NCBI GenBank assembly: GCA_947491945.1
Contig: CANLLN010000001.1
Span: 186,001-250,000, forward strand
Direction: 5' to 3'
Length of the DNA: 64,000 bases
DNA from: an uncultured Carboxylicivirga sp.
Lineage (GTDB): Bacteria > Bacteroidota > Bacteroidia > Bacteroidales > Marinilabiliaceae
The notes beneath the pieces are model-generated. The model did not search any database. It worked only from the letters and a program-made list of their open reading frames with translations, and had not been told where the DNA came from. The position numbers and the translations under genes were made by a program. This document shows positions 28,556-32,978 of the stretch, one piece after another (position 1 is the stretch's first letter; each line of letters begins with the position of its first letter).

Positions 28556-29254
28556 ATGTTGTTAGCCGGAACCATTGTAAATGCACTTACTGTTATTGTG
28601 GGCAGCCTTATTGGCCTTGCCGTAGGTAACCGTATTCCCGCCCGAATAACCAAGGGGGTGTTTCAGGCAATTGGTCTGTTTACCCTGGCTTTGGGTGCAA
28701 GCATGGCTATACAAGGGCAGTTATTGTTACAAATTGTTTTCAGCCTTATTATTGGCACCATAGCGGGGGAACTGCTGATGCTGGATAAGCGCATTGACAA
28801 GCTGAGCGATGGACTAAAGGAGCGGCTGAAGCTAAAAAATCCCAAATTTGCAGAGGGTTTGCTAACTGCTTTTCTGCTCTACTGTGTGGGCTCAATGACC
28901 ATATTGGGTGCCATCGAAGAGGGGATGGGAAAGGGATCGGAGATATTGATGACCAAGGCGATGATGGATGGTTTCTCATCCATCGCATTGGCTGCCATTT
29001 TTGGTGCAGGTGTTGCAATGTCAGCAGTGCCATTATTCCTTTTTCAGGGTAGTATTACCCTGTTGGCCTATTGGATGGGTGATTTTATGTCGCCGGTTGC
29101 CATTAACGAACTAACAGCCGTGGGTGGTGTTTTACTGCTGGGGTTGGGTGTTAATATTCTAGAAATTAAGAAAATACGAATTATGAATATGTTGCCATCG
29201 CTGGGCGTTATATTACTGTTGGTGTGGCTTACGGCTGTTTATAATTCTATATGA
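28556..29254 (+). CDS. DUF554 membrane protein
   Basis: This 232-residue protein has about six to seven hydrophobic segments and begins with the DUF554 signature (MLLAGTIVNALTVIVGSLIG). It also shows GSMTILGAIEEGM and a Gly-rich C-terminal helix set. The family (YdfK/YqgA) is probably a membrane transporter-like protein with unknown substrate. The kinase-RapZ fusion starts 16 bp downstream; co-transcription is plausible. The upstream region 28349-28555 holds no recognised gene. Confidence 0.9.
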   Translation: MLLAGTIVNALTVIVGSLIGLAVGNRIPARITKGVFQAIGLFTLALGASMAIQGQLLLQIVFSLIIGTIAGELLMLDKRIDKLSDGLKERLKLKNPKFAEGLLTAFLLYCVGSMTILGAIEEGMGKGSEILMTKAMMDGFSSIALAAIFGAGVAMSAVPLFLFQGSITLLAYWMGDFMSPVAINELTAVGGVLLLGLGVNILEIKKIRIMNMLPSLGVILLLVWLTAVYNSI

Positions 29255-29270
29255 TCAAAATTAATATACC

Positions 29271-30704
29271 TTGGAAGCAAATACAAAAGCACTATTGATT
29301 AAGATGTTTGAGGCATGGGCCGGAGAAGATGCGCGTTCATTCAGAATGTTGCCCCCCTCAGGATCTTACCGCGAGTATTACCGCATTAGCGGGCGCAGTA
29401 AATCGGCTTTGGGTGCCTATAATGCCGACGAAAAGGAGAATATTGCTTTTCTGTCGTTCTCCGATCATTTCAAATCCAAAGGTCTACCGGTGCCCGAGAT
29501 ATATAGTGTTGACCTCGAGAATAATATCTATTTGCACCAGGATTTGGGTGATGTAACACTTTACAGCTTTTTGCAGGGTTTACGAAAGGGAAAGGACTTT
29601 CCTGATGAACTGCTTTGCTTCTATAAAAAGACTATTAAGAAGCTGCTTTGTTTCCAGATTAATGGTGGTGACGGCCTGGATTTTGATAAGTGTTATCCGC
29701 GTCATGCCTTCGATCGTCAGTCCATGTTGTGGGATCTGCACTATTTTAAGTATTACTTTTTAAAGTTGGCGCGTGTACCCTTCGATGAGCAGGCACTTGA
29801 GGATGACTACCATCAGCTTATTGATTTTCTGCTGGAAGCCGAGCATCATTATTTTCTGTATCGCGACTTTCAATCGCGCAATGTTATGGTGGTTGATGAT
29901 GAGCCTTGGTTTATTGATTATCAGGGGGGTCGTAAGGGAGCCTTGCAATACGATCTGGCTTCGCTGCTGTATGATGCCAAAGCGGATATTCCGCCTCAGG
30001 TGCGTGAATCACTTCTGGAGTATTACATGGATGAGCTGGAGGCATATAAAACGGTGGATCGAATTGCCTTTAAGCGACATTATCAGGCTTATGTGTTAAT
30101 CCGTATCATGCAGGCTATGGGTGCTTATGGTTTTAGGGGTTTTTATGAGAAAAAGGAACACTTCTTAAAAAGCATTCCCTATGCCATTAATAACCTCAAA
30201 TATTTATTGAAAACAGTGGATTTGGGCATTGAACTGCCAACACTTTTTTCGGCCTTGCGCAATGTAACAGAGTCGGAGGAGTTAATGACTATTGGGCAAC
30301 GTAGCAACCAACTGACGGTTCGCATCACCAGTTTCTCCTATAAGCGGGGTATTCCTGTTGATGTATCGGGCAATGGAGGTGGTTTTGTATTTGATTGCCG
30401 TGCCATTCATAATCCCGGTCGTTATCCCGAGTATGCGGATAAAACGGGGAAAGATGAAGAGGTTATCGCCTTTTTTGGTAAGGAACCCGAGATGGCCAAC
30501 TTCCTTAGCGATGTATTTGCCCTGGTTGATAAGTCGGTAGAGAAGTACATTACAAGGGGATTCAGGCATCTGATGGTAAACTTCGGTTGCACAGGTGGCC
30601 AGCACCGTTCAGTTTATAGTGCAGAGCAGTTGGCGGCGCACCTTCAGCATAAATACAAATTAAATGTTGAGCTTAAACATGTGGAGCAGGATATGAAGAA
30701 GTGA
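29271..30704 (+). CDS. AmgK-like sugar kinase fused to a RapZ C-terminal domain
   Basis: This 477-residue two-domain protein starts at TTG 29271, the only start that keeps the full first helix; an in-frame stop lies just upstream. Residues 1 to about 310 form an aminoglycoside-phosphotransferase-like kinase with YRDFQSRNVM (catalytic Asp and Asn) and IDYQGG (metal-binding Asp). They resemble AmgK, the anomeric MurNAc/GlcNAc kinase of cell-wall recycling. From about residue 340 to the end is a RapZ C-terminal domain (NPGRY, FFGKEPEM, GCTGGQHRSVY), which in E. coli senses glucosamine-6-phosphate. A MurU-like nucleotidyltransferase gene follows, so kinase plus uridylyltransferase is the likely salvage pathway. 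What the fused domain does is inferred. Confidence 0.85.
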   Translation: MEANTKALLIKMFEAWAGEDARSFRMLPPSGSYREYYRISGRSKSALGAYNADEKENIAFLSFSDHFKSKGLPVPEIYSVDLENNIYLHQDLGDVTLYSFLQGLRKGKDFPDELLCFYKKTIKKLLCFQINGGDGLDFDKCYPRHAFDRQSMLWDLHYFKYYFLKLARVPFDEQALEDDYHQLIDFLLEAEHHYFLYRDFQSRNVMVVDDEPWFIDYQGGRKGALQYDLASLLYDAKADIPPQVRESLLEYYMDELEAYKTVDRIAFKRHYQAYVLIRIMQAMGAYGFRGFYEKKEHFLKSIPYAINNLKYLLKTVDLGIELPTLFSALRNVTESEELMTIGQRSNQLTVRITSFSYKRGIPVDVSGNGGGFVFDCRAIHNPGRYPEYADKTGKDEEVIAFFGKEPEMANFLSDVFALVDKSVEKYITRGFRHLMVNFGCTGGQHRSVYSAEQLAAHLQHKYKLNVELKHVEQDMKK

Positions 30705-30718
30705 TAGTTTATACGGTT

Positions 30719-30859
30719 ATGGGAAAGAAGAAGTGTAAGGATCCGGATAATCTCAAGCATCCGGTGGTTAAAGAGAGTCATAAGTATGTATGCAAGAAAT
30801 GTGGCTGTGGCTCAAAGAAGGAAGAAAAGCTGTGCAAACCTCAAAAAATTAAGAAATAG
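30719..30859 (+). CDS. 46-residue Cys-rich basic protein in the salvage operon
   Basis: This small gene lies exactly between the kinase-RapZ fusion and the MurU-like gene. It encodes 46 residues rich in Lys, with CKKCGCG (Cys-25, Cys-28, Cys-30) and further Cys at 6 and 39, a pattern able to bind zinc. The start ATG lies 15 bp after the upstream stop, and the TAG shares its last base with the next gene's GTG start, so it is placed tightly inside the operon. I know no function for it. Coding potential is supported by frame continuity and position; it could be a zinc ribbon involved in RNA or protein binding. Confidence 0.6.
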   Translation: MGKKKCKDPDNLKHPVVKESHKYVCKKCGCGSKKEEKLCKPQKIKK

Positions 30860-31584
30860 TGAATGCCATGATTTTTGCTGCCGGCCTGGGCACTCGATTA
30901 CAACCCTTGACTCATAACTTGCCCAAGGCCTTGGCTCCTTTTAATGGGCGTCCTTTGCTGTGGCATGCTATAAAAAGTGTTGAGCAGGCGGGTGCGGAGC
31001 GCGTTATTGTTAATGTGCATCATTTTGCCCACCAAATAATTGACTATTTACAATCCAACGATTGGGGGCTTGATGTGTGCATCTCTGATGAGACGGATCA
31101 ATTGCTGGATACTGGAGGAGGCCTGGTGAAAGCCAAGTCTTTGTTTATTGCCCAAAAACCCATATTAATTCGTAATGTGGACATCATAAGCAGCGCTGAT
31201 ATGGACGCTTTTCTCAAGGCGCACCAACAAGGTGGTAATGCCGCAACGCTGATGGTGAAGCAACGCAACTCATCGCGTTACCTGTCTTTCGATGAGCAGA
31301 TGCGCCTGTGTGGCTGGAAAAATATAAATACAGGCGAGCATATTGACGTATGTCAGGTGCATTCGTCTGTTGATTTGGCGTTTAGCGGTGTTCATATAGT
31401 GGAGCCTCCCTTGGTAGAGGCCATGGGCGATGTGCGTCCTTTCTCCATTATACAAGCCTATCTGTCGCTGGCGGCGCAGCATCGTATTGTTGGTTATCGG
31501 GTAAGCAATGAGGTGCCTTGGTTTGATGTGGGTACAATTGAGAAATTAAAAGAAGCAGAATTATATTATAAATCAGGGAAATAA
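30859..31584 (+). CDS. MurU-like sugar-1-phosphate nucleotidyltransferase
   Basis: This 241-residue NTP transferase begins with the family signature AMIFAAGLGTRLQPLTHNLP. It has KAL as the nucleotide-binding Lys and ends with a GxxW-like WFDVGTIEKLKEAE. The size fits MurU, which converts MurNAc-1-phosphate and UTP to UDP-MurNAc. The start is GTG 30859, overlapping the preceding TAG by one base; ATG 30868 is an alternative. The upstream AmgK-like kinase would supply the sugar 1-phosphate. Specificity for MurNAc rather than another sugar is inferred from this context. Confidence 0.86.
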   Translation: MNAMIFAAGLGTRLQPLTHNLPKALAPFNGRPLLWHAIKSVEQAGAERVIVNVHHFAHQIIDYLQSNDWGLDVCISDETDQLLDTGGGLVKAKSLFIAQKPILIRNVDIISSADMDAFLKAHQQGGNAATLMVKQRNSSRYLSFDEQMRLCGWKNINTGEHIDVCQVHSSVDLAFSGVHIVEPPLVEAMGDVRPFSIIQAYLSLAAQHRIVGYRVSNEVPWFDVGTIEKLKEAELYYKSGK

Positions 31585-31592
31585 TTGAACTA

Positions 31593-32978
31593 ATGAATGA
31601 ACATCAGAGTGGAACGGGGCGCCGTCGTTTGGGTGACCCATTGCAACGTTTTATTAAACTCTTTTCAAGTGGTAGTGCCCTTTTAATGATGGCAACCGCT
31701 ATTGCTGTTGTGTGGGCTAACCTCGATCACGAAAGCTATCACCATTTCTGGCACAGTCCCTTTGGCCTGTCAAGCGAAATGTTTAATGTGAATATGGGGC
31801 TGATGCACTGGGTGAATGACGGTTTAATGGCGGTCTTTTTCTTTGTGGTGGGGCTGGAGATAAAACGTGAGTTTCTGGCCGGTGAGCTGAGCTCCTTCAA
31901 GCAGGCCTCGCTGCCTATCTTTGCTGCCATCGGAGGTATGTTAGTGCCCATTTTGCTGTATTTCTTATTTGGCTTTGAGGGTGATGCACAAAAGGGATGG
32001 GGGATACCCATGGCCACCGATATCGCTTTTTCGTTGGGTGTGCTGGCCATCTTAGGCAAAAGAGTGCCACTGGCACTTAAGGTGTTTTTGACTGCCTTGG
32101 CAATTGTTGACGACTTGGGTGCCGTGTTAGTAATTGCCTTATTTTACGGAGGCGACCTAAACTGGACCTACCTTTTGATAGCGGCCGGCCTTATGTTGGT
32201 GCTTACAGTGGCTAACCTGCGTGATGTTCAGAATTTAAAGGTTTATACCTTGCTGGGCTGCGTTATCTGGTACTTGTTTTTGCAGTCGGGTGTAGATGGC
32301 CCTGGAACAGGATTACATGCCACCATTGCCGGTGTGCTCATTGCCTTTACTATTCCCATGCGCCCCAAGGTTCATATTAATGAGTTTTTGGCACGTATTA
32401 AGTCGGCTCTTACTCGTTTCAATTCGGTACCGAAGAGTGAAAATAAAAGGGTGTTGACCGATGATCAGTTATATGCCATTAATGAAGTTTCGTACTGTGT
32501 GAAAAAGGTGCAGAGTCCTTTACAGTTCATCGAGCATCAGTTTCATGGGTTTATCAGCATGTTTGTATTGCCTGTTTTTGCCCTGGCCAATGCCGGTGTT
32601 ACCTTAGTGCATCAAGGAGAGGGGAGTGGCGAAGTTTTTACTACTTTATCCCTGGCCATAGCCTTTAGTCTGGTGGTTGGTAAGGGTATTGGTATCACTT
32701 TCTTTTCATGGTTGGCAGTTCGTACCGGCATTGCGGTGAAACCCCGCAAATCGTCATGGACCTCCTTTTTTGGTTTGGCTTTACTTGGCGGTATTGGTTT
32801 TACCATGTCGATATTTATTGCCAGTCTCGGGTTTAAAGGACAGCCTGATCTATTGAATCAAGCTAAACTGGGTATTTTTATCGGCTCTATTATATCTGGA
32901 TTGCTAGGATTTTACTTGCTTAAATATTCGCTTAAAAAAGATGAGCAGCAACAGCCCGTAACCACCCGAAACGATTGA
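31593..32978 (+). CDS. nhaA: Na+/H+ antiporter NhaA
   Basis: This 461-residue NhaA family antiporter has about twelve membrane segments. It has the paired catalytic Asp residues in LAIVDDLGAVLVIALFYG and the conserved FFVVGLEIKREF and PMATDIAFSLGVLA regions. It exports Na+ in exchange for H+, helping salt and pH tolerance. The C-terminal extension after the last helix is hydrophilic. It follows the MurU-like gene by 8 bp on the same strand, but its function does not suggest a shared pathway. Confidence 0.95.
   Translation: MNEHQSGTGRRRLGDPLQRFIKLFSSGSALLMMATAIAVVWANLDHESYHHFWHSPFGLSSEMFNVNMGLMHWVNDGLMAVFFFVVGLEIKREFLAGELSSFKQASLPIFAAIGGMLVPILLYFLFGFEGDAQKGWGIPMATDIAFSLGVLAILGKRVPLALKVFLTALAIVDDLGAVLVIALFYGGDLNWTYLLIAAGLMLVLTVANLRDVQNLKVYTLLGCVIWYLFLQSGVDGPGTGLHATIAGVLIAFTIPMRPKVHINEFLARIKSALTRFNSVPKSENKRVLTDDQLYAINEVSYCVKKVQSPLQFIEHQFHGFISMFVLPVFALANAGVTLVHQGEGSGEVFTTLSLAIAFSLVVGKGIGITFFSWLAVRTGIAVKPRKSSWTSFFGLALLGGIGFTMSIFIASLGFKGQPDLLNQAKLGIFIGSIISGLLGFYLLKYSLKKDEQQQPVTTRND

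Follow-up and report, generated by a model that had tools for sequence, protein, structure and literature searches.

A kinase-RapZ C-terminal domain fusion encoded beside a MurU-like gene in Bacteroidota: a probable muramic-acid salvage module

What does the C-terminal domain of RapZ do at the end of a putative amino-sugar kinase? The question is raised by a locus of an uncultured Carboxylicivirga sp. (assembly GCA_947491945.1, contig CANLLN010000001.1), of which we analysed positions 186,001-250,000 of the forward strand, a stretch of 64,000 nt referred to here as the window. In window coordinates, and on the + strand throughout the cluster, a fusion gene (29271..30704, 477 aa, TTG start) encodes, in one chain, an AmgK-like kinase and a C-terminal domain of RapZ (RapZ_C). 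After a gap of 14 bases it is followed by a gene for a Cys-rich peptide (30719..30859, 46 aa counted from its ATG), the stop codon of which overlaps by 1 base with the start of a gene for a predicted MurU-like sugar-1-phosphate uridylyltransferase (30859..31584, 241 aa, GTG start). The fusion ties a domain studied mainly in RapZ, a regulator of small RNAs, to what would be a step of cell-wall-sugar salvage.

We consider the locus to be probably a muramic-acid salvage module. The kinase would phosphorylate salvaged N-acetylmuramic acid (MurNAc), possibly also N-acetylglucosamine (GlcNAc), at C1, and the MurU-like enzyme would then make UDP-MurNAc with no need for MurA and MurB. RapZ_C would take part in this route through its CX5R loop, where a phosphorylated amino sugar would bind. 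Comparative genomics supports the salvage role well, the substrates being those that we infer. The module is a variant of the known AmgK/MurU pathway. It resembles the Pseudomonas system (AmgK and MurU, with MupP) in that the kinase and uridylyltransferase genes stand side by side and are best matched by the AmgK and MurU models, but its kinase bears RapZ_C and its scores lie far under the equivalog cut-offs. A literature search covering few subscription papers returned no title or abstract start describing a RapZ-kinase fusion.

Domains of the fusion protein and identity of its MurU-like partner

The two domains of the fusion, as read in the first-pass annotation, were both recovered over their Pfam cut-offs: APH with 38.2 bits (cut-off 23.2) over residues 59-256, and the RapZ C-terminal domain, PF22740, in complete form with 119.2 bits (cut-off 27) over residues 349-472 (30315..30686). 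The whole-protein model was confident, with a mean predicted local distance difference test score (pLDDT) of 92.6 and a predicted template modelling score (pTM) of 0.76. The kinase part (residues 1-320, 29271..30230) was structurally closest to the putative phosphotransferase 3csv (Z 29.4), and also matched the N-acetylhexosamine 1-kinase 4ocj (Z 20.6) and a glucosamine kinase. It shares the kinase fold with 3csv and 4ocj, the latter by its name an enzyme of anomeric phosphorylation, but the alignments cover the kinase part only and identity is low (18% and 11%, respectively). Its catalytic motifs are intact in an alignment (A4) of 69 rows, made up of the window protein and 68 of the 76 intact relatives, eight intact rows being left out. 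R198, D199, F200, Q201 and N204 of YRDFQSRN (residues 197-204, 29859..29882), which we take to be the kinase catalytic loop, and D216 and Q218 of IDYQ (residues 215-218, 29913..29924), the presumed metal-binding site, are invariant in 69/69 rows.

Against NCBIfam, the AmgK models were the top matches for the kinase part despite scores of only 53.0 of 550 bits (NF045759) and 52.5 of 500 bits (NF045698). The third protein is a nucleoside triphosphate (NTP) transferase for which the MurU models ranked first among 45 matching NCBIfam models, at 126.5 of 370 bits (NF045697) and 116.1 of 250 bits (NF045761). The full-length RapZ model reached 108.3 of 244 bits, with the match confined to residues 338-470; the N-terminal part is an APH kinase and not the P-loop domain of full-length RapZ. 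As every score is under its equivalog cut-off, the names AmgK, MurU and RapZ are used here for best matches only.

Spread of the fusion and loss of MurA and MurB

We searched 198 Bacteroidota genomes, that of the window included, and found RapZ_C in 24 of them, in a single copy each. This search may miss members, and the figure is a lower bound because the control listing lacked Bacillus subtilis, although its RapZ homologue YvcJ is there. In the other 23 RapZ_C genomes (hereafter, with that of the window, the carriers), the domain was fused to the kinase in 19, encoded by a separate neighbouring gene in three (G012, G031, G095) and on a different contig in one (G180). A scan of named-species genomes yielded at least 587 encoded relatives, of which we kept the 80 that best matched the entire fusion; the fused share among these 80 is therefore biased upward, whereas the 23 were found by RapZ_C alone. 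Together with the window these gave 104 loci, or 103 distinct ones after removal of a duplicate (L028 / L049), and 98 of the 103 were fused, four split or stop-interrupted and one RapZ_C alone. The fusion occurs in many Bacteroidota, including named species of Bacteroides, Phocaeicola and Parabacteroides. In the family of Parabacteroides chinchillae the fusion profile matched 86/123 genomes at E 1e-50, five of them in two pieces, 7/21 genomes in the genus of G201 carry the fusion, and Carboxylicivirga sp. A043 has an 81%-identical copy. An assembly error, allowed for at first reading, or a rare fusion was rejected on these counts (19/23, 98/103, 86/123 and the A043 copy).

The MurU-like gene was next to the fusion in 70 of the 103 loci and within 5 kb in two, the flank being too short in three; before duplicate removal it was next in 71/104 loci, or 65/104 under a stricter rule, with the L109 case being a 27-bit match near a contig end. 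No other common neighbour was seen, the next most frequent family occurring in 7/104 loci. The architecture and the order fusion, 46-residue peptide, MurU-like gene read in the first-pass annotation held up in tightly packed open reading frames. Its observations were right but narrower than the true spread of the fusion, and linkage extended widely to the MurU-like gene but to the Cys-rich peptide, among L001-L150, in four relatives only.

Two further observations concern this distribution. Fusions at 51-56% identity were present in metagenome-assembled genomes (MAGs) labelled Elusimicrobia or Acidobacteria (L058, L065, L066, L069, L070, L073), which could reflect contamination or gene transfer. 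One or two in-frame stops were seen in the fusion match of several Parabacteroides-family genomes, e.g. G232, G244 and G318; these are possibly pseudogenes, assembly errors, or stops at the match end.

The kinase was scored with a profile (A3) built from 14 rows, all of them carriers, which match by construction. At 250 bits or more it was found in 25/198 genomes, namely 24/24 RapZ_C-positive and 1/174 RapZ_C-negative genomes, the latter being G009 (Fisher p 5e-30, uncorrected for relatedness). G009 has the kinase and a MurU-like gene side by side and no RapZ_C match. A more distant kinase, at 87-149 bits, was present in family f17 (42 genomes, all without a match for RapZ_C); in the three inspected (L148, L149, L150) this AmgK-like kinase stands alone, with a MurU-like gene directly after it. 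The kinase-MurU pair is thus broader than RapZ_C, and at the 250-bit level the two domains almost always co-occur. A tree was built from 32 kinases; 11 of its 29 inner branches are open, and L147 and L044 are long. The split kinase of G031 groups there with one that is fused (100/97), and those of G012 and G095 fall elsewhere among the fused rows. The two placements suggest that the gene underwent two fissions. In G180, a divergent kinase (L147) and a standalone RapZ_C (L043) lie on different contigs of a genome that has no MurA match and keeps MurB.

The strongest support for salvage comes from carriers that lack the usual route to UDP-MurNAc. MurA was tested in all 198 genomes, MurB in 29 and MurC in 9. 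MurA was over its cut-off in 194/198 genomes. Among the remaining four, G104 matches strongly (E 6.7e-95) and is RapZ_C-negative, G115 and G132 reach at most 78 bits, and G180 has no match. MurA is therefore absent from 3/24 RapZ_C carriers (G115, G132, G180) and from 0/174 other genomes (p 0.0016), or 1/174 if G104 is counted as lacking it (p 0.006). MurB was missing from G115 and G132 and present in the other 22/24 carriers, G180 included. Both G115 (100% complete, 10 contigs) and G132 (99% complete, one contig) have MurC over its cut-off, the fusion and the MurU-like gene. Because MurC is kept while MurA and MurB are missing, the cluster is the only visible route to UDP-MurNAc in these two genomes. 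The losses look independent, since G115 and G132 come from separate families and their kinases from separate parts of the tree. The same pattern, fusion, MurU-like gene and MurC without MurA or MurB, was found in the named MAGs G205 (Ignavibacteriales) and G208 (Calditrichia), for which completeness is not given.

These genomes lend support to the AmgK/MurU-type salvage role proposed at first reading. They also have a parallel within the Bacteroidota: Tannerella forsythia is reported to lack MurA and MurB, to have MurQ and to have been assigned AmgK and MurU (PMC7670621), its AmgK and MurU permit labelling with a MurNAc probe when expressed in E. coli (PMC13041923), and the pair is reported to replace MurA/MurB (PMC7670621, PMC13041923). 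The gene pattern of the MurA/MurB-less carriers matches that published for T. forsythia. In such cells the module should be essential and growth would depend on outside MurNAc.

Possible roles of the RapZ C-terminal domain

Modelled alone, RapZ_C superposed on the E. coli RapZ C-terminal domain (5o5s) over 122 residues with Z 20.4 and a root mean square deviation of 1.3 Å. The likeness to E. coli RapZ and B. subtilis YvcJ is in this fold (Z about 20; E. coli RapZ is 36-38% identical) and in the CX5R pocket loop; the difference is that an APH-fold kinase here replaces the P-loop N-terminal domain. The loop, CTGGQHRS (residues 440-447, 30588..30611), lies in the model between a strand (433-440) and a helix (446-461), and the Cys, Gly and Arg of this CX5R[ST] loop (440-446) are invariant in 76/76 rows. 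For this count four of the 80 relatives with a stop inside the match (L064, L071, L074, L082) were dropped, as they were from the models; a further alignment (A5) comprised 43 relatives and the window protein. CX5RS was present in 76/76 relatives, and the E. coli loop residues C247, T248, G249, H252 and R253 are kept in the window protein. Compared with E. coli RapZ, the H190 position is an invariant Gly (NPG[RK] in 76/76 rows, so that Arg or Lys is next), five residues (SGNGG) are inserted ahead of the FVFD strand, and the consensus of the RNA-binding tail is absent.

In E. coli RapZ, the pocket loop is reported to bind sulfate or malonate (PMC5737377), and the C-terminal domain to bind glucosamine-6-phosphate (GlcN6P; PMC7073468). 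RapZ is reported inactive both with C247A and with C247S, and the same study raises the possibility that the SH group is catalytic (PMC9841335). The likeness of the pocket to a phosphatase loop is already published: Khan and Görke describe it as homologous to that of cysteine-dependent tyrosine phosphatases and suggest GlcN6P hydrolysis (PMC7199280). Phosphatase activity has been reported for YvcJ (PMC7525490). RapZ_C may accordingly be placed among candidates for the step that MupP performs in Pseudomonas, where the reported order is AnmK, MupP, AmgK, MurU (PMC13041923): it may dephosphorylate MurNAc-6-phosphate to MurNAc before the kinase acts.

The points that would speak for catalysis are CX5RS in 76/76 rows, the loss of activity of the E. 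coli cysteine variants, the YvcJ report and the carriers with AnmK but without MurQ. AnmK was found in 17 and MurQ in 11 of the 24 carriers (counting G091, at 300.2 of 302 bits), and 7/24 have AnmK without MurQ; in these MurNAc-6-phosphate would lack the etherase outlet, and another would therefore be needed. HpaP, another RapZ homologue, is said in the title of one paper to have phosphatase activity, and MupP itself is a HAD-type enzyme. Hydrolysis of MurNAc-6-phosphate by RapZ_C is nonetheless a tentative proposal, and in its complete form, a bifunctional protein uniting a cysteine-dependent MurNAc-6-phosphate phosphatase with a MurNAc 1-kinase (MupP and AmgK in one chain) ahead of MurU, it is possible but doubtful. 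If RapZ_C were such a phosphatase, the regulatory domain of E. coli RapZ would be derived from an amino-sugar phosphatase or would still act as one. The fusion offers a direct test of the role of the RapZ ligand pocket, which in E. coli adjoins a cysteine of unexplained importance.

The closest rival to hydrolysis leaves the salvage route as it is and makes RapZ_C a pure sensor of GlcN6P or MurNAc-6-phosphate that switches the kinase on or off. The shared fold and the five conserved loop residues fit it, a cited E. coli RapZ study describes strong conservation of the site across diverse bacteria, and GlcN6P is reported to prompt E. coli RapZ to stimulate the QseE/QseF system as well (PMC7073468). 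H190, however, which is reported to be required for RapZ activity in E. coli (PMC9841335), is replaced by the invariant Gly; the Gly-rich insertion before the FVFD strand speaks against a simple transfer of GlcN6P sensing; and ligand binding alone leaves the invariant cysteine unexplained. In G012, G031 and G095, moreover, RapZ_C persists as a gene of its own beside the kinase gene, and in G180 the two are on different contigs. The first-pass annotation had proposed GlcN6P sensing within one polypeptide. Of the E. coli pocket features, the fold and loop residues are kept and H190 is not, and sensing of GlcN6P as then worded is unsupported; covalent linkage is not obligatory, and we rejected strict intramolecular control as a general rule because split genes exist. 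The first-pass interpretation as a whole is partly supported, and its idea of control is one of two live readings of the domain. Since the AnmK/MurQ distribution cuts both ways, we hold pure sensing or allostery to be about as plausible as hydrolysis, and some other mode to be rather unlikely.

Several observations weigh against the salvage module as a whole or against the part given to RapZ_C in it. Both the kinase and the MurU-like protein are below the NCBIfam equivalog cut-offs, and in 28 of the 103 loci the MurU-like gene was not found in the available flank, the rest of those genomes not having been searched. RapZ_C is dispensable for a related kinase-MurU pair, because such pairs exist without it in G009 and three f17 genomes, and the AmgK of T. 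forsythia, taken above as a parallel, could carry RapZ_C or not. No tyrosine-phosphatase fold was among the listed Foldseek and VIA-align matches of the RapZ_C model, in which the next match after RapZ was phosphofructokinase (Z 7.0). Neither AnmK nor MurQ was found in 6/24 carriers, which weakens MurNAc-6-phosphate as a general ligand, and G156 has MurQ without AnmK, which counts against the phosphatase idea. Finally, G221, a non-carrier outside the 198-genome sample (1.8 Mb record), has neither the fusion nor a match for MurA or MurB, and its MurC falls just short of the cut-off; it may be an incomplete genome or have another route to UDP-MurNAc. For comparison, AnmK and MurQ were both lacking in G009, G044, G075 and G106 (kinase, no RapZ_C; three are of one family), and of six more genomes, in which both the kinase and RapZ_C are absent, 6/6 had MurQ and 3/6 AnmK. 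The four carriers without MurA and MurB all have MurQ over its cut-off and may therefore also degrade MurNAc.

It is quite improbable that the pair activates another sugar, such as GlcNAc or a sugar of the outer membrane or capsule, and not MurNAc. Many sugars are substrates of APH-type kinases and NTP transferases, the matches of the kinase model include N-acetylhexosamine 1-kinase and glucosamine kinase, and in L042 the cluster adjoins lipopolysaccharide (LPS)/Kdo-like genes, a resemblance only. The AmgK and MurU models are nevertheless the best for the two proteins, MurA is missing only in RapZ_C carriers among the 198 genomes, and MurC is retained in G115 and G132 where MurA and MurB are not, with the caveat that G221 lacks MurA and MurB too. 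That RapZ_C makes the protein an RNA-binding adaptor of the E. coli kind, by which salvage would be coupled to RNA decay, is very hard to credit: fold and loop are the same as in E. coli RapZ, whose C-terminal domain reportedly contacts GlmZ partly via the pocket (PMC9841335), but an E. coli-type tail was rejected for the window protein by a pattern search for RxRxKNxQxRHRTxxKRK, and the tail is said to be unconserved in YvcJ as well (PMC7525490).

Neighbouring genes

The Cys-rich peptide has five Cys in the window copy, four of them within a pattern, C...CxxCG...CKP, common to four relatives. Peptides of 40-46 aa with this pattern lie 3' of the fusion gene in L048 (Carboxylicivirga), L054 and L055 (Prolixibacteraceae) and L076 (Bacteroidales); among L001-L150 no other locus had one, own copies aside and with an unrelated 70-residue pattern match in L067 excluded. 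The peptide is perhaps a small zinc-binding protein. Directly upstream of the fusion, a DUF554 gene (28556..29254, + strand) ends 16 bases before the fusion start and is possibly co-transcribed with it; its membership of the system is not clear. In the MurA/MurB-less genome G132, the cluster (L042, 7872-12337) adjoins further genes, which we liken to genes of LPS transport and of the synthesis of 3-deoxy-D-manno-octulosonic acid (Kdo). Downstream in the window, a gene at 31593-32978 that starts 8 bases past the MurU-like gene encodes a membrane protein, presumably similar to the antiporter NhaA, and L048 has a similar downstream start.

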